Source of the DNA: Tranquillimonas alkanivorans
Lineage (GTDB): Bacteria > Pseudomonadota > Alphaproteobacteria > Rhodobacterales > Rhodobacteraceae
DNA: 40,767 nucleotides
Assembly: GCF_900115595.1 (NCBI RefSeq)
Contig: NZ_FOXA01000021.1
Span: 1-40,767 of the forward strand
Direction: 5' to 3'
The notes below the pieces were generated by a model that saw only the letters and a program-made list of their open reading frames with translations, did no database searches and had not been told where the DNA came from. A program made the position numbers and the translations under genes. Shown in pieces: positions 11,866-37,092 of the stretch (within the stretch, counting starts at the first letter, position 1; each line of letters opens with the position of its first letter).

Positions 11866-11963
11866 GGTTCGTTTATGACTAACGATTGATGGGCATCGGA
11901 GGCAAGGTCGACGATGCAGGAGTTCCGGGCACCGACTCGGCGTTCACGAAAGGGAGGAGAAAC

Positions 11964-12995
11964 ATGAGAAAGACGATGATGGCCGCTGCGGCGGCGACCT
12001 TTGCCGCGGCCGGCGTCGCGCAGGCCGACACTTATGATCTGCAAAGCACCTTCGGATTGAACGTGCCGTCGATCGGTCCGAGCCCCCAAATCTGGGCCGA
12101 CCGCGTGGCGCGGATGACGGACGGCGAAGTGCAGATCAACGTACATGGCGCGGGCGACTTCGTGCCCCCGTTCGAGGTGTTCGGCGCCGTGAGCTCGGGC
12201 GCGCTACCCATGGGCTTCGACTGGATCGGCTACTGGGCGCAGCAGATCCCGGTGGCAAACCTGGTCGGTTCCATGCCTTTCGGCCCGACACCAGAGGTCG
12301 CTCTCGGCTGGATGTTCGAAGGCGGCGGGCTCGAGATTATCCAGAAGGCTTATGACCCCTTCAACGTTAAGGTCCTGCCCTGCCACCTCGTACTCCCCGA
12401 GGCCGGAGGCTGGTTCAACAAGGAGATCAACGCCGTCGAGGACCTGCAGGGCCTCAACATGCGAATCGCCGGTCTCGGCGGCCTGGCGATGGCCAAGCTC
12501 GGCGCAAACACACAGCTCGTGCCGGCCGGCGAGATCTTCCTCAGCCTTGAGACGGGCCGCATCGACGCCGCCGAATTCTCGGCCCCGCAACTCGACGTGG
12601 GCTTCGGCTTCCAGCGCGTCACCGACTATTACTACTTTCCGGGATGGCACCAGCCGTCGAGCTGGGACAGCATCATCATCAACATGGATGTCTGGAACAG
12701 CTTCGACGAAGAGACCCAGACCATCATGGAGGACGCCTGCAAGGCGAACATAGCCTATAACCTGCACGACCAGGTGGACGCTCAGGCCGATGCCATCGCC
12801 GAGATCCGCGAGGCCGGCGTCGAGGTGAAGCGCTTCCCCGACGAGGTCCTGGCCGCCCTCCGCGAAGCCAGCGACGAAGTCATGAACGAGCAGGCGCAGA
12901 ACGACCCGATCTTCGCGGAAGCCCTGAGCTCGCTGCGCGAGTACATGGACACCGTCGGTGAGTGGGGCACTCTGCAGGACCTGCCCGCCCGCTGA
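11964..12995 (+). CDS. dctP: TRAP transporter periplasmic substrate-binding protein (DctP family)
   Basis: A 343-residue DctP-type binding protein. Residues 1-21 are a signal peptide ending GVAQA. The mature protein has SIGPSPQIWADRVARMTDGE, SSGALPMGFDWIGYWAQQIP, NLVGSMPFGPTPEV and GGWFNKEINAVEDLQGLNMRI, with the ligand-arginine region MRIAGLGGLAMAKLG and the VDxAEF-like RIDAAEFSAPQLD. The composition (YWAQQIP, PFGPTPEV, a long helix with PQLD) resembles the 2-oxoacid-binding TakP subgroup, so a 2-oxo or hydroxy acid ligand is plausible. The ATG at 11964 follows GGGAGGAGAAAC. First gene of the operon with DctQ, DctM and an MBL-fold protein. Confidence 0.93.
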   Translation: MRKTMMAAAAATFAAAGVAQADTYDLQSTFGLNVPSIGPSPQIWADRVARMTDGEVQINVHGAGDFVPPFEVFGAVSSGALPMGFDWIGYWAQQIPVANLVGSMPFGPTPEVALGWMFEGGGLEIIQKAYDPFNVKVLPCHLVLPEAGGWFNKEINAVEDLQGLNMRIAGLGGLAMAKLGANTQLVPAGEIFLSLETGRIDAAEFSAPQLDVGFGFQRVTDYYYFPGWHQPSSWDSIIINMDVWNSFDEETQTIMEDACKANIAYNLHDQVDAQADAIAEIREAGVEVKRFPDEVLAALREASDEVMNEQAQNDPIFAEALSSLREYMDTVGEWGTLQDLPAR

Positions 12996-13010
12996 ACCTC
13001 CTTAGAACCA

Positions 13011-13044
13011 GACGCGGGCGGCTTCTGTTTTCGCCGTCCGCGTC
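13011..13044 (+). promoter_or_regulatory. Intercistronic stem-loop between dctP and dctQ
   Basis: GACGCGGGCGGC pairs with GCCGTCCGCGTC (11 of 12 positions, one mismatch) around the ten-base loop TTCTGTTTTC, 15 bases after the dctP stop. There is no trailing T-run. It probably protects the dctP transcript end or partly terminates it, giving more binding protein than permease. Confidence 0.65.
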
Positions 13045-13062
13045 CCGGGAAGGACACCCGCA

Positions 13063-13623
13063 ATGCCTCATGTGATCACCAGGCTGCTGGATCTGCTTTG
13101 CCTGCCGGGCAAGTGGCTGAGCTGGCTTATCCTGCCTTTGATCTTGTCCATTCTCGCGGCCATCGTCTGGGCCGCCCGCGGCCAGAACACCTTTCTGGCG
13201 TGGGAGGCGGATCTTCCGGTGCTGGGCCGTGCGCTCACCGTCAACGGCCTCTTCGATCTCCAGTGGTACATTTTCGCGCTGCTGGTCTTGTTCGGCGGGA
13301 TCTGGTCGCTGCGCGAAGAGCGCCACGTCTCCGTGGATTTCCTTTGGCTGATGATGCCGCGCCGCGCACAGCTTTGGATACGCAGTGTCGGTGACCTCGT
13401 CTTTCTCCTGCCCTTCTGCCTGATCATCACGTGGTACGGCTGGTCTTTCGCAGAAGTCGCGTGGACGTCAGGGGAGGGCTCCACGCAGGGCGGCCTGAAC
13501 AGCCGCTGGCTGATCAAGGCAATGCTGCCCCTGGCGTTCGCTCTCCTCGGCCTGATGGCACTTCTACGCGGCATCGGAACCACAATCGAACTGCTACGGC
13601 CCACCTCCAAGGACCAGACATGA
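13063..13623 (+). CDS. dctQ: TRAP transporter small permease (DctQ family)
   Basis: A 186-residue membrane protein with four hydrophobic segments (WLSWLILPLILSILAAIVWA, FALLVLFGGIWSL, LVFLLPFCLIITWYGWSF, LPLALALLGLMALL-like), the family topology. The segment LREERHVSVDFLWLMMPRRAQ contains the conserved His-Val-x-Val-Asp motif after the second helix. The N-terminal half is longer than in many DctQ proteins because of the first loop (AARGQNTFLAWEADLPVLGR). It overlaps the dctM start (ATGA at 13620-13623), so the two permease subunits are translationally coupled. Confidence 0.88.
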   Translation: MPHVITRLLDLLCLPGKWLSWLILPLILSILAAIVWAARGQNTFLAWEADLPVLGRALTVNGLFDLQWYIFALLVLFGGIWSLREERHVSVDFLWLMMPRRAQLWIRSVGDLVFLLPFCLIITWYGWSFAEVAWTSGEGSTQGGLNSRWLIKAMLPLAFALLGLMALLRGIGTTIELLRPTSKDQT

Positions 13624-14954
13624 ACGAATACGCCTGGCCATCGCTGATGCTGCTGGCGCTCGTGGCGGGCGTCTTCTCCGGCTATCCTGTCGCCTTCATC
13701 CTTGCCGGCACCGGCATCATCTTCGCGGTACTCGCGGACGTGCCGATGCTGTTCCTGTCGATGGGCGTTCAGCGCATCTATTCGGGCACGCTGACGAACT
13801 GGCTCCTCGTCGCCATCCCGCTCTTCGTCTTCATGGGCCTGATGCTCGAGCGTTCGGGCATCGCCGAGCGGCTGATGCGCTCTCTCGCCTCACTCTTCCG
13901 CAGCACGCCCGGTGGCTACGCCTTCGCGGTCGCCGTGATCGGCGTCATAATGGCAGCTTCGACCGGCATTATCGGCGCCTCCGTGGTGATGATGGGAATG
14001 ATGGCGCTGCCCGCCATGCGGGAGGCAAAGTACGACATGCGGCTTGCGAGCGGCCTGATCGCCTCGTCCGGAACGCTGGGCATCCTGCTGCCGCCATCGA
14101 TCATGCTGATCATCCTGGGCGACCAGATGCGGCTGTCGGTCGGCGACCTCTTCCTCGGCGCCATCGGGCCGGGGCTGCTTCTGGCCGGGCTCTACTTCGT
14201 CTACCTCGCCGCTGTCGCGAACTTTACACCGCACCGCGTGCCAGCACCGCCCACGCCCGAGCGCCGCAGCTTTCTGCCTACGGTCCTGGCGCTCGCGCGC
14301 GACCTGCTGGCGCCGGCGCTGCTGATCCTGTCGGTCCTTGGGACCATCGTGGCTGGCGTCGCGACACCGACCGAGTCGGCGGCGATCGGCGCAGCGGGCG
14401 CAATGTTGCTCGCCTTCGTCTCGCGCCAGCTCAACCTCGGCGTCCTGCGCGAGGCGATGTACGAGACGACAAAGACCACCGCGATGATCGTGTTCGTGAT
14501 GATCGGCGCCTCGATCTTCTCAGTGGTGTTCCGCCGGCTCGGTGGTGACGCCATGATCGTAGATTTCTTCGACATCCAGGACAGCAATCCCTACTGGGTC
14601 CTGTTCACCATCATGGCGCTGATCTTCATCCTCGGCTTCTTCCTGGACTGGGTCGAGATAACGCTGGTCGTCGTTCCGTTGGTCGCCCCGGTCGTGGCGC
14701 TCCTCGACTTCGGCCTGCGAAGCGACCAGGTCATGATCTGGTTCGCGATCGCTCTGGCGGTGAACCTGCAGACATCGTTCCTGACGCCGCCATTCGGGTA
14801 TGCGCTGTTCTATCTGCGCGGCATCGCGTCGGACCTGCCGATCTCGGTGATCTACCGCGGCGTCATGCCCTTCGTGCTGATCCAGATTACCGCGCTGGTT
14901 CTCGTGATCCTGATCCCGGCGGTCGTGCTGTGGCTGCCCATGGCAGCACGCTGA
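13620..14954 (+). CDS. dctM: TRAP transporter large permease (DctM family)
   Basis: A 444-residue permease with about twelve membrane segments. Family motifs include SGYPVAFILAGTGIIFAVLA, IPLFVFMGLMLERSGIAERL, AASTGIIGASVVMMGMMALP, ASSGTLGILLPPSIMLIILG, GVATPTESAAIGAAGAMLLA and FLDWVEITLVVVPLVAPV, ending with SFLTPPFGYALFYLRGIA. This subunit forms the sodium-driven elevator that accepts ligand from DctP. The real start is ATG 13620, overlapping dctQ; longer upstream reading is out of context. The gene is intact and 28 bases ahead of the MBL-fold gene. Confidence 0.93.
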   Translation: MNEYAWPSLMLLALVAGVFSGYPVAFILAGTGIIFAVLADVPMLFLSMGVQRIYSGTLTNWLLVAIPLFVFMGLMLERSGIAERLMRSLASLFRSTPGGYAFAVAVIGVIMAASTGIIGASVVMMGMMALPAMREAKYDMRLASGLIASSGTLGILLPPSIMLIILGDQMRLSVGDLFLGAIGPGLLLAGLYFVYLAAVANFTPHRVPAPPTPERRSFLPTVLALARDLLAPALLILSVLGTIVAGVATPTESAAIGAAGAMLLAFVSRQLNLGVLREAMYETTKTTAMIVFVMIGASIFSVVFRRLGGDAMIVDFFDIQDSNPYWVLFTIMALIFILGFFLDWVEITLVVVPLVAPVVALLDFGLRSDQVMIWFAIALAVNLQTSFLTPPFGYALFYLRGIASDLPISVIYRGVMPFVLIQITALVLVILIPAVVLWLPMAAR

Positions 14955-14982
14955 TCCAAATCCAGAGACAAAGGAGACGTTC

Positions 14983-15933
14983 ATGGCCAAGGCATTCGCA
15001 TCGCAAGGCGACATGGAAGAGAAGCAGGTCAGCTTCACCCAGGTGGGCGAGGGTTTGTGGGCCTTCACCGCCGAAGGCGACCCCAACACCGGCGTCATCA
15101 TCGGCGACGACAGCGTGATGATCGTCGAGGCGCAGGCGACGCCGCGCCTGGCGCGCAAGGTGATCGAGAAGGTGCGCGAGGTCACCGACAAGCCGATCAG
15201 CCACCTCGCCATGACGCATTACCACGCCGTGCGCGTGCTGGGCGCCTCGGCCTACGGCGCCGACACGGTCATCATGGGCGAGAAGGCCCGCGCCATGGTC
15301 GTCGAGCGCGGGCAGGAGGACTGGGACAGCGAGTTCGCCCGCTTCCCGCGCCTGTTCCAGGGCCACGAGGAGATCCCGGGCCTGACTTGGCCCACCACCA
15401 CCTTCAACGACCGCATGACCGTCTATCTCGGCAACCGCCGGGTGGACCTGATGCACCTGGGCCGCGCCCACACCGCGGGCGACATTGTGGTCCACGTGCC
15501 CGACCAGAACGTGATGTTCACGGGCGACATCGTCGAATACAAGTCCGCCTGCTATTGCGGCGACGGGCATTTCGGCGACTGGCCCAAGACGCTCGAAGCC
15601 ATCCGCGCCTTCGACCTCGACGCCATCGCGCCGGGCCGGGGCGACGCGCTGGTGGGCCGCGAGATGGTGAACGCCGCGCTCGATTCCACCGCCGATTTCG
15701 TCCGCTCGACCTATCGCCCCGCCGCCAAGGTGGCGCTGTCGGGCGGCACGCTGAAGGAAGCCTGGGACGCCGTGCGCGCCGAGTGCGACCCGAAGTTCTC
15801 GGACTACGCCATCTACGAGCACTGCCTGCCCTTCAACGTCGCCCGCGCCTATGACGAGGCGCGCGATATCGACACGCCGCGCGTCTGGACCGCCGAGCGC
15901 GACGCCGAGCTCTGGAACGCCCTGCAGGACTGA
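14983..15933 (+). CDS. Metallo-beta-lactamase-fold protein with an altered metal site
   Basis: A 316-residue MBL-fold protein. The canonical zinc motif H-x-H-x-D-H is replaced by THYHAVRV: His79 and His81 remain, but Asp and His of the second site are Val83 and Arg84. His163 (GRAHTAGD) and the bridging Asp182 (FTGDIVE) are present, whereas the final ligand, usually P-x-H-G, reads APGRG (Arg219). One metal site could therefore persist while the second is lost, which points to a mononuclear enzyme or a non-hydrolytic role. AAAGGAGACGTTC precedes the ATG. It ends the TRAP operon and may process the imported compound. I think other alphaproteobacteria carry the same H-Y-H-A-V-R motif, but I cannot verify that here. 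Confidence 0.8.
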   Translation: MAKAFASQGDMEEKQVSFTQVGEGLWAFTAEGDPNTGVIIGDDSVMIVEAQATPRLARKVIEKVREVTDKPISHLAMTHYHAVRVLGASAYGADTVIMGEKARAMVVERGQEDWDSEFARFPRLFQGHEEIPGLTWPTTTFNDRMTVYLGNRRVDLMHLGRAHTAGDIVVHVPDQNVMFTGDIVEYKSACYCGDGHFGDWPKTLEAIRAFDLDAIAPGRGDALVGREMVNAALDSTADFVRSTYRPAAKVALSGGTLKEAWDAVRAECDPKFSDYAIYEHCLPFNVARAYDEARDIDTPRVWTAERDAELWNALQD

Positions 15934-16131
15934 GGCTGCCGAAGCATCCCGTACAGAGCGACTTTAGCGGCTGAGAATCATGCTGAAATTTCGAGAGTGC
16001 TATTCCTCGTCGCTGTCGCTCAGGTCTTTCTAAGGCGGCGATGTCACATAACGCCCGTACCGGACATGCCCGATAGTGCCACCTACGTGGTGTAGGAAGC
16101 GGCGCGGTCGCTCTATCTACTGGGCAGCAGC

Positions 16132-17357
16132 TTACACCGTGACGAGGGCACAGATCAGAAGCGATACCACGGCTCCGACCGTCATGACGTAGCCACCATT
16201 CCATCGCCAAGCCACGAGCGCGGGGCTCACGTTACCATATGCTGCGATCAGCAAGACTGACGCCGTGAAGGGCGAGGTGACGCCACTGAGGGCCCAATCG
16301 CTGGTGATAGCGGAAACCATGGCAACGGGTGCGATGCCCAGCACCTCCGGTGAAGGCAAAAGCGGACCGATGAGCGATACTGCCAAGATCGGGTTCATCC
16401 CGATCTGGCCTGTAATGGGGACGAGCCAAAAGACTCCGACGAGTAGCAGCGCGGCAGGGATCGAGCTCAGATCGATGCCGGCGGTATCAACCAACGGGCT
16501 TGCAATGGCAGACCCCAATGTGCCGATGAATCCCGCCATTGATAAAAGGACCAGTTCACCGTTCAGTCCGGGGAGCTCGCGGGTCGCGAAATCGGCCACG
16601 CTATCACACACCGCGGCGGCAGGATGATCTCCGACCGCTTGGAGGGCGACCCACCCCATGGCGATCAGCGGCACCAGAGCCATGACGGCTCCGAAGACCT
16701 GAACACCGAAAGTGAAGTGGACCGTACCGGCCGAGGCAAGGACCAGGTTGAGGAGCGTAATCAGGGGGCTCAGATGGTGGAGCCAAGCACGGCCTGACGA
16801 GTCTTGTGCCGGTGGCGGATGACCGGAGGGGGGTGGCTTGGTTGCGAGACTGCCGAGCAGAGATATCGAGCCGTAAAGGAGGATCAGTCCGAAGAGGTGA
16901 CCGCCGATCGTGAGGGCGAGGTAGCGCTTCCCCGGCGCCTGGTTTGCCAGGAAGCGACCGCACTCGATAATGGAGGGAGACTTGGACGCGGCTGACCGTA
17001 TCGCCGTCAGCGCGCAGAAGAGCGCAGAAGAGCGCAGAAGAGCGCAGAAGAGCGCAGAAGAGCGCAGAAGAGCGCAGCAATGGAGCTCGCCCGGGTCAAG
17101 GCATCGAATATGGCCTCGTCCCAATTTGGCAGGGTGCTGACCGCGATTACGGTGAGCAGGGCACCGATCAGCAGAAAAACCCGGCGTGACATGGCCACCT
17201 GCGGGCCGAAGGCGGCCAGTCCGCAAAGAGCGAATGCTCCGGCGATGTAGGAGAGAGCAGGAAATCCGGTAAACTGGTAGGGGATGGTTGTGAGCAGGTT
17301 GGCAACCATGAGGAAGCCGCCGATCTGGTCGCGCCATTTCGGTGACCCGAAATTCAA
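16132..17357 (-). CDS. Polytopic membrane protein (transporter-like), split by a decanucleotide repeat; phase-variable candidate
   Basis: Two halves of one membrane protein lie in different minus-strand frames. The 5' half starts at TTG 17357 (AGGA five bases upstream) and runs MNFGSPKWRDQIGGFL, TTIPYQFTGFPALSY and RRVFLLIGALLTVIAV into the repeat, then stops at 17007 after 116 residues. The 3' half continues from the repeat as ALTAIRSAASKSPSIIECGR and GKRYLALTIGGHLFGLILL to VSLLICALVTV, stopping at 16132. Adding one 10-bp unit or deleting two joins them in frame (411 or 401 residues); both totals divide exactly by three. About ten hydrophobic segments are visible, including ITGQIGMNPILAVSLIGPLL. 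The family is not recognised; the architecture suggests an ion-coupled carrier. Alternatives are a decaying gene or a miscounted repeat. Confidence 0.7.
17012..17077. repeat. Tandem decanucleotide repeat (gcgcagaaga), 6.6 copies
   Basis: Six perfect copies of GCGCAGAAGA plus GCGCAG lie head to tail. The unit length is not a multiple of three, so each gain or loss shifts the reading frame. On the coding (minus) strand three units encode the decapeptide SSALFCALLR. Because 30 bp is the common period, all three frames give the same circular decapeptide and none contains a stop. The single-unit ancestral form would read IAALFCALTAIRS in frame with both halves of the gene, so copy numbers of 1, 4, 7 are in frame and the present 6 is out. 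Confidence 0.95.
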
Positions 17358-17633
17358 TATTCCTGCCTCTTTGGGAAGTGCCTGCGGCGCGCAGTGTCAT
17401 GCGCCATCCCCGGAGTGTCCAGACTGCCTCCCGTCCAGATCGGGTTCGCTGAGCATCGGGTGCAGGCTCCTTCCGCGAGCCAAGCCCAAAAATGCCTGAG
17501 CGACCGATCAGACCAAGCCGGAGCGCTCAGGTCCCTATCGGCTGGCGCGCGCAGCGAAGGTCTTGCAGTATCGCGGAAAGGAGACAGTAGCGCATGTTTA
17601 CCAAGTACGTGACCGTGACCGGGATACCTGCCC
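17358..17633. other. Divergent intergenic region
   Basis: These 276 bases separate the repeat-split membrane protein gene from the SDR gene and must carry both promoters. I see no confident -35/-10 pair, no long palindrome and no small gene with a good ribosome-binding site. Confidence 0.4.
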
Positions 17634-18368
17634 ATGAGTAAGCGGATCGCTCTGACCGGAACCGCTTCGGCGCTCGGTGTCGCCATTGTACGGGAGCTTT
17701 ATGCCAAAGATCTTTCCGTCGTGGGCCTGAGCGAGTCCATCTCTCCCCACCTGGGATGGCATCACGTCGATCTGACCGATGCCGCAGCGGTTGCGAACCT
17801 AAGGACCGGCGTTCTCGACGGGCTCATCAACGCTGCGGAGCGGCTTCCCGAGGACGGAGGAGCGGTAGAGATCCTTGAATTCAACTGGTTCTGCACGCGC
17901 CTCCTTACAGACACCCTGCTACCGCAACTGGCCCCCGGCGCGGCGATCGCCACCTTGGCTTCGAGAGCCGGGCGAGAATGGCGGAAAAACCTGAGCCAGG
18001 TTCGGCGCCTGATGGCATTGCCTCACTCGGATCGCTTGCCCGATTTCGTGCGTAACGAGAAGATCGACCCGGATCGGGCATACGCCTTGTCCAAGGAAGC
18101 GCACATCGTGTGGACCAAGCAAAATGCTGGGGTCCTGAGAGCGCGCGACCTGCGCGCTAACACGATCAGTCCTGCCGCTGATGGCGGCCCTGAGCCGGCA
18201 GACGGCAAGAACCGGCAAAAGGCACATCTCGGCAGCGTCGCGGCCGTCGCCGGTTTCTTGGTGGACAGGGGCAGTAGCTGGATACACGGACAAGATCTTA
18301 TCGTAGACGGCGGGTGCTCTGCCGCGCAGGAGGCCCAGGCCTTGGGGCTGAACTCGCAGACGTATTGA
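17634..18368 (+). CDS. SDR-family oxidoreductase, 3-alpha-hydroxysteroid-dehydrogenase-like
   Basis: A 244-residue SDR. The cofactor motif TGTASALG (8-15) is followed by VVGLSES; the usual NNAG is degenerate (INAA, 65-68). Tyr150 and Lys154 in YALSKEA, Ser110 in TLASRAG, and the C-terminal WIHGQDLIVDGG are retained. The compact N-terminal half with a missing helix and a 25-30 residue insertion before the YxxxK motif (EWRKNLSQVRRLMALPHSDR) is the layout of bacterial 3-alpha-hydroxysteroid/coniferyl-alcohol-type dehydrogenases. It stands alone on the plus strand, divergent from the membrane protein gene. Its ribosome-binding site is weak (GGGATA). The substrate is unknown; the family call is moderate. 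Confidence 0.78.
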   Translation: MSKRIALTGTASALGVAIVRELYAKDLSVVGLSESISPHLGWHHVDLTDAAAVANLRTGVLDGLINAAERLPEDGGAVEILEFNWFCTRLLTDTLLPQLAPGAAIATLASRAGREWRKNLSQVRRLMALPHSDRLPDFVRNEKIDPDRAYALSKEAHIVWTKQNAGVLRARDLRANTISPAADGGPEPADGKNRQKAHLGSVAAVAGFLVDRGSSWIHGQDLIVDGGCSAAQEAQALGLNSQTY

Positions 18369-18481
18369 ACTCGAATGGCTGTTTCGGCGGATTGGGTGCC
18401 GGATCTGACCGCGGGTTCTCGGTCGCGAGGAGCTGCGGATCAGGACAGGCGCCCTGCCCCACGGCATCGAAGAATGAAGGA

Positions 18482-18513
18482 GGAGGCGCGATTAAGCCTG
18501 CATTCACGCCTCC
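18482..18513. terminator. Possible bidirectional terminator hairpin between convergent genes
   Basis: GGAGGCG and CGCCTCC form a 7-bp stem with an 18-base loop in the 156-base gap between the convergent SDR and DHDPS-like genes. There is no T-run, so this is a weak candidate. Confidence 0.3.
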
Positions 18514-18524
18514 CCCTAACTTCC

Positions 18525-19454
18525 TCAAGACGTAGATCCGCAGTCCGGGTCCCGGGCCGCCAGACGCCGCAGAAGCCGCTCTACCTCGTCCCGCGCCTCT
18601 TCGCTCAGGCTTGGCCCCGGCGTGCGGAGAGCGTCGTGAGCGATGGCGCCCCGCTGCTTCAGGATGTACTTTCGTACCGCAAGTCCGACCCCCGCCTGTT
18701 GTTCGTACCGCAGAAGAGGCAGGTGCGCGTCGAAGATGTCGGAGGCGGCCCCGTCGTCATGCTCCGATAGGTCGACCACCCTGCGCAGCATCTCCGGGAA
18801 GGCGTAGCCCGTCATCGCTCCGTCAGCGCCGCGCTGCATCTCGAAGTCGAGGAACATTCCGCCGTTTCCGCACAGAATAGAAATCGGTCGCATCTCTCCT
18901 TGCTGCTGCCAGCGACGGAGAGCGGTAAGCTTCTCGAGTCCCGGCCAGTCCTCGTGCTTGAGCATGACGCAGGAAGGGATCTCCTCGACGATCTGCCGGA
19001 TGACGCGCGGTGCCATGACGACGCCCGTCGCAGTCGGGTGGTCCTGCAGGACGAAGGGGATGTCCTCGCCGATCGCCCGGACCGCGTTGCGGACCCAGCC
19101 GGCGATCTGCTCGTCCGTCCGCATGGCTGCGGGCGGTGTCATCATGACGCCGGCGGCTCCAAACTCCATGGACTTCAGCGCGAGGCTGCGCATCGCCACA
19201 AAGCCCGGCGCCGATACGCCGACAATGACGGATTTGCCTGCGGCCGCCGCGACGATCTCCCGCACGACAGCCTCGCTCTCCTCGGGAAGAAGCTTCTGGG
19301 CTTCTCCGAGGATGCCGAGGATGGTCAGGCCGTCGACCTTCCGTTCCAGGTACCACTCGGTCATGGGGCGGAGGGAGGCCAGGTCCAAGGCGCCATCCGG
19401 CTTGAAGGGGGTGGGCGTGATCGCAAAGACGCCCTTCGTTCGGTGCGAGATCAT
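18525..19454 (-). CDS. Dihydrodipicolinate-synthase/N-acetylneuraminate-lyase family aldolase, atypical
   Basis: A 309-residue (beta/alpha)8 class I aldolase of the DHDPS superfamily. Visible landmarks are ITPTPFKPDGALD (12-24), DGLTILGILGEAQKL (41-55, corresponding to the G-T-T-G-E loop but lacking the threonines), the Schiff-base Lys166 in CVMLKHEDWPG, and ILCGNGGMFLDFEMQRGADG. The catalytic tyrosine loop, usually P-Y-Y, reads MTPPAAMRTDE, so the proton-relay tyrosine is missing. That argues against lysine biosynthesis and for another pyruvate-type retro-aldol or dehydratase reaction. The ATG at 19454 overlaps the RraA stop (ATGA) and has AAGGCAGGG upstream. Last gene of the SDR/RraA/aldolase operon. 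Confidence 0.85.
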   Translation of the reverse strand: MISHRTKGVFAITPTPFKPDGALDLASLRPMTEWYLERKVDGLTILGILGEAQKLLPEESEAVVREIVAAAAGKSVIVGVSAPGFVAMRSLALKSMEFGAAGVMMTPPAAMRTDEQIAGWVRNAVRAIGEDIPFVLQDHPTATGVVMAPRVIRQIVEEIPSCVMLKHEDWPGLEKLTALRRWQQQGEMRPISILCGNGGMFLDFEMQRGADGAMTGYAFPEMLRRVVDLSEHDDGAASDIFDAHLPLLRYEQQAGVGLAVRKYILKQRGAIAHDALRTPGPSLSEEARDEVERLLRRLAARDPDCGSTS

Positions 19455-20170
19455 TGCCCTGCCTTCCACTCGTCATAACGTGCGCGGGTTTCTCCGTTCA
19501 TCGGGTAGAGCCCGGGCAGCGTCTCACCGCGGCCGACCTCATCCACGATCCAGCCCTCCATCCGCTCCTGTTCCGGCGCTTCGTCGAGCACCTCGCCCAG
19601 CAGGGCGGCGGGAATGACGACCGCCCCGTCGCGGTCCGCCACGATGGTGTCGCCGGGAATCACGCAGACGCCCCCGCAGCCTACCGTATCCTCCCACCCG
19701 ACGAAGGTCAGACCGGCGACGGACGGAGGTGCGGCCGCGCCACGGCACCAGACGGAAAGGCCGGTGCCCAGAACGCCCTCGAGATCCCGGACGACCCCGT
19801 CGGTCACCAGGCCGGCGGCGCCCCTTTTGACCATGCGTGCGCAGAGGATGTCGCCGAACACTCCCGCGTCGTCCACGCCATTGGCGTCAATGACCGCGAA
19901 GGCCCCCTCGGGCATCGCCTCGATGGCCGCTCGCGTCGAGATGGGGCTGCCCCAGCTCGCCGGCGTCGCGAGATCCTCGCGCGCCGGGACGAAGCGGAAA
20001 GTGAAGGCTGGGCCCACCACGCGGTCCTGGCCGTTCCTGAGCGGCATCGCGCCGCGCATCCAGACGTTGCGCAGGCCCTTCTTGAGCAGGATCGTCGTGA
20101 GCGTGGCGGTGGTGACGCCCTTCAGGATCTCGATGGCTTCGGCGTCGAGAGGACGGGTTTCGGTCGTCAT
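19451..20170 (-). CDS. RraA-family aldolase/decarboxylase-like protein (HMG/CHA aldolase type)
   Basis: A 239-residue RraA-superfamily protein. The metal and substrate loop GDILCARMVKRGAAGLVTDG continues into VVRDLEGV, containing the conserved G-D-x-x-x-x and D-G-x-x-R-D motifs of class II pyruvate aldolases such as 4-hydroxy-4-methyl-2-oxoglutarate aldolase. AFTFRFVPAREDL and the closing VIPGDTIVADRDGAVVIP are also typical. The length exceeds plain RraA regulators (about 160) because of N- and C-terminal helices, as in the catabolic aldolases. It sits between an SDR (13 bases upstream) and the DHDPS-like gene (overlapping), so it probably cleaves a hydroxylated 2-oxo acid. A second RraA-type gene lies at 23171-23890. 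Confidence 0.87.
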   Translation of the reverse strand: MTTETRPLDAEAIEILKGVTTATLTTILLKKGLRNVWMRGAMPLRNGQDRVVGPAFTFRFVPAREDLATPASWGSPISTRAAIEAMPEGAFAVIDANGVDDAGVFGDILCARMVKRGAAGLVTDGVVRDLEGVLGTGLSVWCRGAAAPPSVAGLTFVGWEDTVGCGGVCVIPGDTIVADRDGAVVIPAALLGEVLDEAPEQERMEGWIVDEVGRGETLPGLYPMNGETRARYDEWKAGQ

Positions 20171-20182
20171 GTCGGGTGTCCT

Positions 20183-20968
20183 TCAGATGCTGGGAATGTA
20201 GCCGCCGTCGATCCGGATCTGCGACCCGGTGACGTAGCCGGCGCGCTCGGAGGCGAGGAAGGCGACCATGTCGGCGTACTCGTGCGGCTCGCCGTACCGC
20301 CCCATGGGGATGGCGGCATGACTCTCGGCGCGGACGTCCTCGACGCTCCGGTTCTCCCGCTCGGCCTTCTTCTCGTCGAGGAAGGTGATGCGCTTGGTGG
20401 CGACGCGGCCGGGCATGACCACGTTGCATGTGACGCCGTCCTTGCCGACTTCGGCCGCGACAGTCTTGGACCACCCGACGAGCGACAGGCGCAGGGCATT
20501 GGAGATGCCGAGGTTCGGGATCGGTGCGGCCACGCCCGACGAAGTCGACGTGATGATACGACCCCAGCCGCGCTCCCGCATGCCTGGCAGGACCCGGTCG
20601 GCTATGCTCATTACCGACACCACCATCGAGTCGAAGAACTTGCGCCAAGTTTCGGGGTTTTGTACGGATGCCGGACCCGGCGGCGGGCCACCGGTCACGG
20701 CGACGAGGATGTCGATGGAGCCCAGCCGCGTTTCCACCTCGCCGACTTTGCCGTCCACGTCGTCAATCAGGCTCAGATCCCATTCCAGGGCGATTGCTTC
20801 GCCGCCGGCCTCCGCAATAGCCTCGACCGTCGCGGTCGCCGCAGCCTTGTCAAGATCCGCGGCCGCGACTTTTGCACCTTCATCCGCAAGCGTCCGCGCG
20901 ATGGCGCCTCCGAGACCGCCACCCGCGCCCAGCACGAGCGCCGTGCGTCCTTTCAAGCCCAGCTCCAT
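20183..20968 (-). CDS. SDR-family protein lacking the catalytic Tyr/Lys (BKR-like)
   Basis: A 261-residue Rossmann protein. The cofactor-binding region LVLGAGGGLGGAIA (11-24) and acidic AAADLD are close to normal, and the C-terminus YVTGSQIRIDGGYI is typical. The active-site helix, however, reads STSSGVAAPIPNLGISNALR: the serine cluster is present while the YxxxK of classical SDRs is replaced by ISNAL. This matches the atypical BKR-like SDR subgroup (cd05344 as I recall it), in which the tetrad is not conserved. NAG is likewise replaced by VTGGPPPG. It may use another residue or act on an unusual substrate. First gene of the operon, divergent from LysR across 93 bases. Confidence 0.85.
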   Translation of the reverse strand: MELGLKGRTALVLGAGGGLGGAIARTLADEGAKVAAADLDKAAATATVEAIAEAGGEAIALEWDLSLIDDVDGKVGEVETRLGSIDILVAVTGGPPPGPASVQNPETWRKFFDSMVVSVMSIADRVLPGMRERGWGRIITSTSSGVAAPIPNLGISNALRLSLVGWSKTVAAEVGKDGVTCNVVMPGRVATKRITFLDEKKAERENRSVEDVRAESHAAIPMGRYGEPHEYADMVAFLASERAGYVTGSQIRIDGGYIPSI

Positions 20969-21008
20969 GGAGCCTCCATTCCTTCATTCATCCATTCAAG
21001 AAGGATTT

Positions 21009-21062
21009 AACCGAAGTTCTGATGCGCGTATTCTTCTTTCACAACGAAAGGATGGTTCGGTT
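21009..21062. promoter_or_regulatory. Inverted repeats in the SDR/LysR divergent region
   Basis: Two symmetric elements lie in this 93-base gap: AACCGAA (21009-21015) with TTCGGTT (21056-21062), and a tighter TTCTTTC-ACAAC-GAAAGGA (21034-21052, six of seven pairs). LysR regulators typically bind T-N11-A type dyads between divergent genes, so the inner dyad is the better operator candidate. The outer arm overlaps the LysR TTG start. Binding is inferred. Confidence 0.38.
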
Positions 21063-21943
21063 TGGAGACCAAGAATCTTGAGACTCTGAGGGCGGTCGCC
21101 CAGCAGGGGTCACTTGCCGGAGCAGCACAGGTGCTGAACGTCACTGCGAACGCTGTGGCGCAGCGAATTCGAGTGCTGGAGACGGAACTCGGCGTCCCCC
21201 TCCTCGCCCGTGCGGGCAGGAAGGTCCGCCCGACGCGGGCCGGTCACGCCGTTCTCGAACGCCTGCCGGGCATCTTGCGGGACGTGCGAGACCTGCACGC
21301 CGCGGCAGCCGGAGGAGAGATCGCCGGAGAATTGAAGATTGGAGCCATCGCCACAGCACTGACGGGTCTACTTCCGGAGGTGCTGGAGCATCTCGCGCGA
21401 GACCACCCCGGCCTACGCCTGCACCTGGAGCCGGGCACCTCCAGCGAACTGTATGAGCGGACGCGCGATGGCGCACTTGACGCGGCTGCCATCGTCGAGC
21501 CGGAATTCGACCTCCCAAAGCTGCTCAGCTTCCGCCTGTGGCGGCGCGAGCCCCTGATTTTGCTTGTTCCAGAAGCCGAGGGCCGGGAGGATCCGCTAAT
21601 GATCCTCCGAACCGAGCCGGTCATTATTTATGATCGAGGTCAGTGGGGCGGTCGTTTGGCCGCGAGATGGCTTGAGCAACAGCGCATGCCCCTTCAAACG
21701 CTCTTCGAGCTCGATGCCCTTGATACGATCGCGGTCCTGGTAGGCCGAGGGCTCGGCGTGTCGGTGGTGCCGGAATGGGCTGGGCCGAGGCCGGAAGGGG
21801 TGCGCCTGCGCAGCTTGCCCCTTCCGGATCCGGCTCCAGAGCGAAGGATCGGAATGATCTATCCACGCAATGGCGCGCGAACTCATCTGGTCGACGTGCT
21901 GCTCAACGCAGCCGAAGCCTCCCTTTCTACCTCCGACCGGTGA
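21062..21943 (+). CDS. LysR-family transcriptional regulator
   Basis: A 293-residue LTTR. The N-terminal helix-turn-helix (residues 3-60) reads LETLRAVAQQGSLAGAAQVL then NVTANAVAQRIRVLETELGV, followed by the PLLARAGRKVRPTRAGHAVL wing. The LysR substrate-binding domain begins GELKIGAIATALTGLLPEVL and contains GVSVVPEW. The start is a TTG: an in-frame stop lies about 45 bases upstream and no ATG or GTG is available, while AAAGGATGG precedes it. It separates two minus-strand operons that each encode an RraA-type protein and probably regulates the divergent SDR/RraA/aldolase operon. Its last 61 bases overlap the end of the convergent FMN dehydrogenase gene. Confidence 0.9.
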   Translation: METKNLETLRAVAQQGSLAGAAQVLNVTANAVAQRIRVLETELGVPLLARAGRKVRPTRAGHAVLERLPGILRDVRDLHAAAAGGEIAGELKIGAIATALTGLLPEVLEHLARDHPGLRLHLEPGTSSELYERTRDGALDAAAIVEPEFDLPKLLSFRLWRREPLILLVPEAEGREDPLMILRTEPVIIYDRGQWGGRLAARWLEQQRMPLQTLFELDALDTIAVLVGRGLGVSVVPEWAGPRPEGVRLRSLPLPDPAPERRIGMIYPRNGARTHLVDVLLNAAEASLSTSDR

Positions 21944-23184
21944 AGGACAAAGCGGGAATTTCCGTTCGCGTCTCGTATCCCCGATAGAGACTGAAGCCCG
22001 ATCATGGCCATGTTCCGATCGATTTCTTCCGACAGGATGTCGATCGCCCGGGTTACGCCGGACCGGCCGGCAAGAGCCGCGGCGTAGAGGAAAGGCCGTC
22101 CGACGAAAGCGAAGTCCGCCCCGAGTGCCAGCGCCTTGAGAACCTCTGTGCCGCGCCTGAGCCCGCTGTCGATAAGAACGGGCACGTCCGGCCCCGCTGC
22201 GGCACGGATGCCGGGCAGTGCGTCGAGGGGCGCGATCATGCTGTCGAGCTGACGGCCACCATGACTCGAGACTATCAGCCCGTCGCACCCCATCTCGAGG
22301 GCGCGGCTCGCGTCATCCGGGCGCAGGACGCCCTTGAGGATCAGGTTTCCCTTCCAATGCTTCCGTGCTGTCTCGAGGTGCTCCCATGCGAAAGCCTCCC
22401 GGCCGCTGAACGAACGCTCGATGTTGCGCGCGACGATCGGTGGACCTTCGCCCACGTCGAGGTTCGCGAAGCGCGGCATGCCATGCCGCATAAGCGTCCT
22501 GAACGCCGTCCCAAATGACCAGGCCGGGCGGGTGGCGCCCTGCAGGAACAGCTTCGGTGTCGGCGCGATTGGAGTTACGAAGCGATTCCGCTTGTCGATT
22601 TCCCGGTTCCCGTTAACCGGAACGTCGGCCGTGACGACGAGCGTCTCGAACCCTGCGGCGGCGACCCGCTCGACCATCGCCCGGACGCGATCATGGTCGC
22701 CGGGGAAGTAGGCTTGGAACCAATGGCTCGGCCCCTCCTTAGCGACACGTTCGAGCGGTGTAAGCGAGGTCGCACTCAGGATCGCGACGGTCTCGCGGTC
22801 ATGTGCGCCATTGGCGAGTGCGACATCACCATCGTAGGCGGCGAGTGCCGACAGACCCATTGGAGCAATGCCGAAGGGACGGGAGTAGCGCCTCCCGAAC
22901 AGGCTCACCGACTGGTCCCTATCCTTGGTGCCGCGGAGCACGTTTGGAGAAAAGAGATACTTCTCGTACGCGCCCCGGCTGCCTGAATATGCTGCGCCGG
23001 ACTCGGCGTGACCCACTACATACCCGAAGATCGGAACCGGCAGATGCCGGCGTGCGCGTGCTTCGAGGTCGTCGAGGGAGACTACGCCGCGCATGCTCCT
23101 CGGAACGTTCTGGCGTACCGGGGCAGCCGTTTCGGGGCCGCGGGACGCAACGGAGGATTTGCTGGAGGACTCAGCGGCTGTCAT
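21883..23184 (-). CDS. FMN-dependent 2-hydroxyacid dehydrogenase/oxidase (LldD/glycolate oxidase family)
   Basis: A 433-residue (beta/alpha)8 flavoprotein that oxidises an L-2-hydroxy acid to its 2-oxo acid. Seen: SLDDLEARARRHLPVPIFGY, FGIAPMGLSALAAYDGD, SATSLTPLERVAKE, the substrate segment HWFQAYFPGD, VTADVPVNGNRE, ILKGVLRPDDA with the FMN lysine, the catalytic His-Gly-Gly-Arg in VSSHGGRQLDS, and VLIDSGLRRGTEVLKALALGA followed by FVGRPFLYA. The start ATG at 23184 lies inside the upstream RraA gene (14-base overlap); a GTG at 23211 is an alternative. The N-terminal 35 residues and C-terminal tail are longer than usual, and the tail overlaps the LysR gene. Third gene of the 2-hydroxyacid operon. 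Confidence 0.9.
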   Translation of the reverse strand: MTAAESSSKSSVASRGPETAAPVRQNVPRSMRGVVSLDDLEARARRHLPVPIFGYVVGHAESGAAYSGSRGAYEKYLFSPNVLRGTKDRDQSVSLFGRRYSRPFGIAPMGLSALAAYDGDVALANGAHDRETVAILSATSLTPLERVAKEGPSHWFQAYFPGDHDRVRAMVERVAAAGFETLVVTADVPVNGNREIDKRNRFVTPIAPTPKLFLQGATRPAWSFGTAFRTLMRHGMPRFANLDVGEGPPIVARNIERSFSGREAFAWEHLETARKHWKGNLILKGVLRPDDASRALEMGCDGLIVSSHGGRQLDSMIAPLDALPGIRAAAGPDVPVLIDSGLRRGTEVLKALALGADFAFVGRPFLYAAALAGRSGVTRAIDILSEEIDRNMAMIGLQSLSGIRDANGNSRFVLHRSEVEREASAALSSTSTR

Positions 23185-23890
23185 CGCGGTACGTTCCTTC
23201 GTAGATGACACAGCCTCGCTCGTTCAGCAGCCGGTCCACCCAGGCCCGATCCACGCCGCCATCCCGTATCGAGGCGAGCTCTTTGGTTTCCGCCTCGAGC
23301 TTCGCCTCGCCGGCAGACAAAATTTGGTCGGCATCCGCAGCGGGGATGGAGAGAACGCCGTCCCCGTCGCCGACGATCAGATCCCCGGGATTGACCACCA
23401 TGCCGCCGATGCGCACCGGGACGTTTACCTCTCCGGGTCCGTCTTTGTAGGGACCTCGATGGGTGATGCCGCGGGCAAACATGGGCATTCCCATCTCGGC
23501 GATCTCGTCCCGATCACGGACGGCCCCATCGACCACGAACCCCTCCACGCCCTTCGTCTTGCCGAGGAGCGCCATGATCTCTCCCATGATCGCCGTGGTC
23601 AGATCGCCACCGGCGTCGACCAGGATCACGTCGCCAGGGCGGGCCATGTCGATCGCCTTGTGAACGACAAGGTTGTCGCCGGGCCTCGTGCGCACTGTCA
23701 GAGCGGTGCCGGCGATCGACTTGCTCCCTTTGGCCCAGTGTATGGGAAATATGCCTGCGCCGCCCGCATCCATGCGGTTCATCATGTCGGAGATGTTCGC
23801 CACCGGCAGACGCCGGGCTCGGTCGATCAGCCTGGAATCAATCTGCGAAGCGCATCCGAAGACGCGAAAGCCGTTGCTCACCTTGTTCAT
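23171..23890 (-). CDS. RraA-family protein (class II aldolase-like)
   Basis: A 239-residue RraA-type protein. It contains LPVANISDMMNRM, the GTALTVRTRPGDNLVVHKAI stretch, GDVILVDAGGDLTTAIMGEI, and the metal/substrate motif VEGFVVDGAVRDRDEIAEM with the conserved D-G-x-x-R-D. NPGDLIVGDGDGVLSIP is the usual closing strand. It shares only family-level motifs with the RraA protein at 19451-20170, so the two are not a recent duplication. Its start overlaps the 2-hydroxyacid dehydrogenase stop (ATGA at 23887-23890) and its end overlaps the FMN dehydrogenase start, so the three genes are tightly coupled. Aldol cleavage or decarboxylation of the 2-oxo acid made by the FMN enzyme is the natural reading. 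Confidence 0.87.
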   Translation of the reverse strand: MNKVSNGFRVFGCASQIDSRLIDRARRLPVANISDMMNRMDAGGAGIFPIHWAKGSKSIAGTALTVRTRPGDNLVVHKAIDMARPGDVILVDAGGDLTTAIMGEIMALLGKTKGVEGFVVDGAVRDRDEIAEMGMPMFARGITHRGPYKDGPGEVNVPVRIGGMVVNPGDLIVGDGDGVLSIPAADADQILSAGEAKLEAETKELASIRDGGVDRAWVDRLLNERGCVIYEGTYRDDSR

Positions 23891-35806: not shown

Positions 35807-37092
35807 TGACCGAAGCCTCCATCCTCTTCTCGATGTTCATGATGATCGCCATCGGCCTGCCGATCGCGGTGGCCATCCTGGCGAGCGCGCTGGTCGGGGT
35901 CTGGCTGCTCAACGGTCACCTGGGCTTCCTGAACGCGGCGCTGTCGCTTTATGACGGCGCCACCAGCTTCCCGCTGATCGCGATCCCGCTCTTTATCCTG
36001 GCGGGTGCGTTGATGAACACCGGCGGCATCTCGACACGGCTGATCGCCTTCGTCTCGGCGCTGATCGGCTTCGTGCGCGGCGGGCTCGCCATGGTGAACG
36101 TGGGCGTGTCACTGTTCTTCGCCGAGATCTCGGGCTCGGCGGTGGCCGACGTGGCCGCGACGGGCTCGGTGCTGATCCCCGCGATGAAGAAGAAGGGATA
36201 CGCGCCCCGCTTCGCCGCGGCGCTGACCTCCTCCTCGGCATCGCTGGCCATCATCATCCCGCCGTCGATCCCGATGATCCTCTACGGCGCGCTGTCGGAC
36301 ACCTCGATCGTCAGGCTTTTCGTCGCCGGCATCGTGCCGGGCCTTCTCGGCGGCGGCCTGCTGATGGCGCTCTCGTATTACTTTGCAGTGCGCTACGACC
36401 TGCCACGCGAAGAGGGCTTCAGCCTGTGCCGGCTCTGGAAGGCCACCAAGGACGCCGTTTGGGCCCTGATCCTGCCGGTGATCATCCTGGGCGGCATCTT
36501 CGGCGGCATCGTCACCGCGACAGAGGGTGCGGGCCTCGCCGTCGTCGCCTCGCTCTTCATCGGGCTCTTCATCTACCGCGAACTCGACTTCGGGAAGCTC
36601 TACGGCGCCTTGCTCGACGGGGTGAACCAGACGGCGACGGTGATGCTGCTCGTCGCCGCCTCGGCGGTGCTGGGGCTCTACCTGACCGAGACCGAGCTGC
36701 CGCAGCGGCTGGCGGCGGGAATTACCGACATCACCACCAACAAGATCCTGGTGCTGATGATCATCAACGTCTTCCTGCTGTTCGTGGGCATGGTCCTGCA
36801 CGGCGCGGCGGCAATCATCCTGACGGTGCCGATCTTCATGCCGCTGGTGCACCAGATGGGCATCGACCCGATCCAGTTCGGCATCCTGATCACGCTGAAC
36901 ATCGCGCTCGGCCAGCAGACCCCGCCGGTGGCGAGCGTGCTGATCACCGCCTGCTCGATCGCCAAGACCGACGTCTGGAGCACCACGAAGACCAACCTGC
37001 CGTTCATCGGGGTGCTGGTGCTGGTGCTGCTTCTCGTCACCTACGTTCCCGCGGTGCCGCTGTCGCTGGTGGAGGCCTTCTATGGTCAGTAG
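35806..37092 (+). CDS. dctM: TRAP transporter large permease (DctM family)
   Basis: A 428-residue permease. Markers: FMMIAIGLPIAVAILASALV, LIAIPLFILAGALMNTGGIS, GGLAMVNVGVSLFFAEISGS with AVADVAATGSVLIPAMKKKG, SSASLAIIIPPSIPMILYG, GGIFGGIVTATEGAGLAVVA and a closing NIALGQQTPPVASVLITACS. The G-S-A-x-A-D motif and two PP-S helical hairpins of DctM are intact, with about twelve membrane segments. Its last eleven bases overlap the first dehydrogenase gene. Confidence 0.94.
   Translation: MTEASILFSMFMMIAIGLPIAVAILASALVGVWLLNGHLGFLNAALSLYDGATSFPLIAIPLFILAGALMNTGGISTRLIAFVSALIGFVRGGLAMVNVGVSLFFAEISGSAVADVAATGSVLIPAMKKKGYAPRFAAALTSSSASLAIIIPPSIPMILYGALSDTSIVRLFVAGIVPGLLGGGLLMALSYYFAVRYDLPREEGFSLCRLWKATKDAVWALILPVIILGGIFGGIVTATEGAGLAVVASLFIGLFIYRELDFGKLYGALLDGVNQTATVMLLVAASAVLGLYLTETELPQRLAAGITDITTNKILVLMIINVFLLFVGMVLHGAAAIILTVPIFMPLVHQMGIDPIQFGILITLNIALGQQTPPVASVLITACSIAKTDVWSTTKTNLPFIGVLVLVLLLVTYVPAVPLSLVEAFYGQ

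Follow-up and report, generated by a model that had tools for sequence, protein, structure and literature searches.

The gene at 16132-17357 on the minus strand of the window (the whole stretch of 40,767 nucleotides of Tranquillimonas alkanivorans DNA that was analysed) is, with high probability, a freshly inactivated gene of a predicted transporter with an ArsB/INDY/TRAP-M-like fold, carrying an array that stems from slippage expansion of a 10-mer. These coordinates conceal an in-frame loss of 231 bp (77 codons) at 16840/16841. By DNA alignment this stretch is retained by the nearest relatives identified, Roseivivax marinus (L031) and Citreimonas salinaria (L032), which belong to genera different from that of the window species, and it is present in 34/34 aligned relatives. 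A frameshifting repeat is easily mistaken for a genetic switch, and the two can be told apart by asking if the remainder of the gene is undamaged. The features are the following:

17012..17077, minus strand: tandem array of a 10-bp unit in 6.6 copies, reading GCGCAGAAGA on the plus strand and TCTTCTGCGC on the minus strand
17007..17357, minus strand: truncated frame as sequenced, 116 aa, from the open reading frames
17076..17357, minus strand: N-terminal gene part, 94 codons, with 61-65% identity to R. marinus and C. salinaria and with TTG 17357 at the same aligned position in both
16132..16998, minus strand: C-terminal gene part, 288 codons and stop, in a different frame from the N-terminal part
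16840..16841, minus strand: junction of the 231-bp (77-codon) in-frame deletion relative to 34/34 aligned relatives
17358..17422, minus strand: leader partly conserved in R. marinus and C. salinaria, with the 11-base block CTGGACACTCC identical in all three

The array at 17012-17077 is the outstanding tandem array of the window, with a period of 10, 6.6 copies, 100% match, and a TRF score of 132 against 67 for the runner-up, in agreement with the six perfect 10-bp units plus a partial one counted in the first-pass annotation. Its match run comprises 56 bases; when the window was simulated 30 times with a first-order Markov model, the runs at periods 4-30 were 9-20 bases long. In its own assembly (a draft of 92 contigs, 4.54 Mb) the two-unit pattern with up to 2 mismatches is confined to this array. 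A scan of 55 sequences with some overlap (267,662 bases including the window; 7 of the 62 sequences were skipped as own-genome copies of the window) showed no other array with period 4-20 and at least 4 exact copies. At periods 4-30 none was found in 21 sequences from the own genome, which together comprise 222,506 bases including the window; 14,864 of them are N, which leaves 207,642 readable bases, less than 5% of the 4.54-Mb genome. Because the array is perfect, it is either young or kept homogeneous.

When the minus-strand gene is read from TTG 17357, its frame closes after 116 aa at 17007, so that the truncated product of 116 residues proposed earlier is confirmed. All three minus-strand frames are open across the array, and for this reason a 422-aa ORF from ATG 17400 also reaches the C half; it was rejected as a real gene, as it reads the conserved N half in the wrong frame and starts at an ATG that R. 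marinus and C. salinaria do not share. The number of units does set the frame: computed from TTG 17357, a change of -2 units gives 401 aa, +1 gives 411 aa, and -5 gives 391 aa. The suggestion that -2 or +1 units exactly restores the protein was therefore right as to the return of the frame, with 401 or 411 aa, but not as to the product, which still lacks 77 residues found in 34/34 aligned relatives.

Both closest relatives encode 468 aa each if translation is taken to begin at the codon that aligns with TTG 17357, a start chosen by the analyst. Their junction is IAALFCALTAIR with a single 10-mer unit, exactly the form that had been guessed to be ancestral, while the window array carries five extra units (exactly 50 bp), which accounts for the frameshift. 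No comparable array was seen at the scanned loci of relatives, which cover one genome per species, R. marinus and C. salinaria having one unit each. The assignment of the two half-frames to one protein was likewise borne out by the relatives, in which the halves are encoded uninterrupted and not as separate proteins; the length found in these two species is 468 aa, not the 401 or 411 of the frame-restored forms. The C half was matched in 31 of the 147 searched genomes including its own (30/146 besides it) and at 10 loci of named genomes and MAGs, and its family is present in six family-level groups of the class; the N half was matched in 15 of 394 family genomes including its own, with open frames of 377-537 aa in the other 14. 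Altogether 39 relative loci (L002-L040) entered the comparison, and 34 rows remained in the final alignment after exclusion of L030 (no frame), L002 (same protein as C. salinaria), L024 (cut by a contig end), and L026 and L028 (645-aa frames).

In the alignment of the 34 relatives, 53 columns are conserved in at least 85% of the rows; 14 of these best-conserved columns fall into the missing stretch, and four of the 14 are invariant (A, R, W, and P). All 34 relatives are gap-free at the 53 columns, despite up to 19 substitutions at these positions in the distant ones; columns 155 and 158 read as missing in the window rows only because the repeat junction was omitted. In the AlphaFold model of an intact relative (pLDDT 84.5) the lost stretch covers three helices of the ArsB/INDY/TRAP-like transporter fold. 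According to the alignment, no unit number gives back the family's full protein, the 77 conserved codons being absent at every number. The first-pass annotation had named further inactivating mutations in both halves as evidence against its reading; such a second lesion was indeed found, although in the C half only. In addition, the GWALSG motif is altered by a change of G to D (G in 31/34 relatives), and another conserved residue by a conservative change of R to K (R in 29/34 relatives; C. salinaria also has K). At the flanks of the deletion no notable repeat was seen by eye in the alignment with R. marinus and C. salinaria. The missing segment was not found elsewhere in the own assembly (best match E 0.225, contig 69), and neither was a second gene copy, and relocation of the segment or duplication of the gene was rejected.

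The assignment of the gene product is based on its fold. The ion transporter (ArsB/INDY/TRAP-M) fold is matched across most of the protein, where "ion transporter" is the superfamily name for the fold of ArsB, INDY (DASS), and TRAP DctM. The family differs from these proteins in sequence, with 7-17% identity in structural alignment; no Pfam or NCBIfam model was matched at cut-off by the members scanned, for which weak sub-threshold matches with E 0.14 and 0.21 were the only ones, and no PDB sequence match was obtained at E 1. The fold predicts a membrane transporter and not a surface structure. The R. marinus locus (L031:3692-5098) is itself a member of this transporter family without a Pfam or NCBIfam match among the members scanned, and the analysis points in this way to a family, spread over six family-level groups of the class, that lies outside the models of both collections as far as its scanned members are concerned.

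Selection on the remaining codons was estimated over 382 shared codons by pairwise Nei-Gojobori comparison with dS near saturation, and the branch dN/dS was 0.125 for the window, 0.174 for R. marinus, and 0.085 for C. salinaria. The N half gave 0.193 for the window against 0.330 and 0.160 for the relatives, and the rest of the gene gave 0.094 against 0.204 and 0.069. Only the 53 codons between the lesions, a short piece with unreliable dS, show a window value (0.247) that exceeds those of both relatives (0.018 and 0.032). Neither stop codons in either half nor further indels were found relative to R. marinus and C. salinaria. As in a pseudogene, the frame and the conserved core are disrupted in comparison with intact relatives by the frameshift and the 77-codon loss, while relaxed selection on the leftover codons was not detected (0.125 versus 0.174 and 0.085), as would be expected if the inactivation is recent. 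The ordinary dN/dS is the main result that argues against a long-dead pseudogene, and the simplest reading of these codons is that the gene was functional until recently. The window value lying between those of the relatives, the absence of stops and further indels, and the in-frame character of the deletion were counted against inactivation; since the leftover codons are overall under ordinary constraint, the damage is probably recent.

A possible course of events can be proposed for the inactivation. In the codons for LFCAL (CTC-TTC-TGC-GCN-CTG) the 10-mer is imperfectly doubled, and this may have served as a seed for replication slippage and expansion; in the R. marinus junction DNA the two copies are alike, by eye, in 8 of 10 bases. 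The 231-bp loss would be an illegitimate deletion. Both lesions are probably recent because ordinary purifying selection is seen in the leftover codons. Once the transporter had become dispensable, the copy number of the array would be free to drift with no selected switch being involved, and an array born by slippage may still be unstable. Together, the window and its relatives would show clearly, before and after, how a tandem array arose from an imperfectly doubled 10-mer inside ordinary codons.

Slippage of this kind is not strange in alphaproteobacteria, since frameshifts by repeat slippage are reported for Rhodobacter copA, at a 10-C tract in R. capsulatus and at five CG units in R. sphaeroides; these changes, which inactivate copA, appeared as suppressors (PMC5829832). 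In both copA and the window gene a repeat causes the frameshift, and both are membrane transporter genes of alphaproteobacteria; the window gene differs in its second, large deletion, in its 10-bp unit, and in having no known selection.

The first-pass annotation took the gene for a contingency locus, in which slippage of the 10-bp array toggles a membrane protein ON and OFF. In the simple-sequence contingency loci of host-adapted pathogens, a membrane protein gene carries, around its 5' third, a coding array whose unit length is not a multiple of three. The window gene resembles them in these features of the array, its frame comes back at -2 or +1 units, and little decay is visible elsewhere in the gene; but it has no complete ON form, because every frame-restored form is without the 77 residues, including the four invariant columns, which 34/34 relatives have. 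Moreover, R. marinus and C. salinaria lack the array, and the modelled fold predicts a membrane transporter in place of a surface structure. Other loci of the kind in a genome are usual for contingency loci, if not obligatory; within the readable part of the own genome (less than 5%) no second such array turned up. According to these facts the switch was not supported, and it is considered improbable. Still less credence is given to the special case in which an alphaproteobacterium that is not known as host-adapted would carry a decanucleotide phase switch whose ON form is a short transporter working, or acting differently, without the 77 residues; no publication on a coding decanucleotide phase switch in Rhodobacteraceae was found by title in a search with most subscription journals outside its scope.

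The in-frame nature of the deletion, purifying selection on the branch, and the lack of stops would also suit a gene that remained functional without the 77 codons, the frameshift being a recent slippage accident of this isolate. Against this stands the content of the lost stretch, which comprises three helices in the model as well as 14 of the 53 conserved columns; moreover, only the window lineage among the aligned ones would have to tolerate the loss. Such a variant is regarded as quite improbable. An assembly error in the deletion or in the repeat number is conceivable for a draft of 92 contigs, but both sites are interior to the contig, the array of only 66 bp is below common read length, and a search of the assembly did not turn up the missing segment at any other place; this explanation is regarded as extremely unlikely. 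Recent inactivation of the transporter gene is therefore preferred.

Besides its identical 11-base block, the leader at 17358-17422 shares CGCA.GA.ACTG blocks with R. marinus and C. salinaria and is possibly a cis-regulatory RNA or a protein site. A riboswitch was set aside, as Rfam gave nothing significant for window positions 17340-17640 (two chance-level hits, the best with E 6.2 to an unrelated lncRNA family) and no hits for 251 bases of the R. marinus leader. The consensus fold of the leader, derived from three sequences only, contains 16 pairs, of which 3 show two-sided change and 7 are broken, or fall on a gap, in one sequence. A 15-nt inverted repeat (87%) surrounds the gene, with arms at 16015-16029 and 17490-17504 and 1460 nt between them; it may be due to chance.

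Within 11886-23211 the broken gene lies between TRAP transporter genes for DctP and DctM; one flank also carries a metallo-beta-lactamase-fold gene, the opposite flank SDR, DHDPS-like, RraA-like, and FMN-dehydrogenase genes, and the region is likely to be catabolic. When 13 window ORFs were compared with the flanks of L031, L032, L033, and L035 (mostly about 4 kb, shorter on one side in L035), the sole match was the DctM gene in R. marinus, with 30%; by blastn of the window against the R. marinus and C. salinaria sequences only 74 bases at 36237-36310 were matched outside the gene. Judging from these comparisons, the gene seems to be located elsewhere in the relatives. In the SDR-like protein encoded at 17634-18368 the best Pfam adh_short_C2 stretch covers residues 147-228 only, and its N-terminal part may be divergent.
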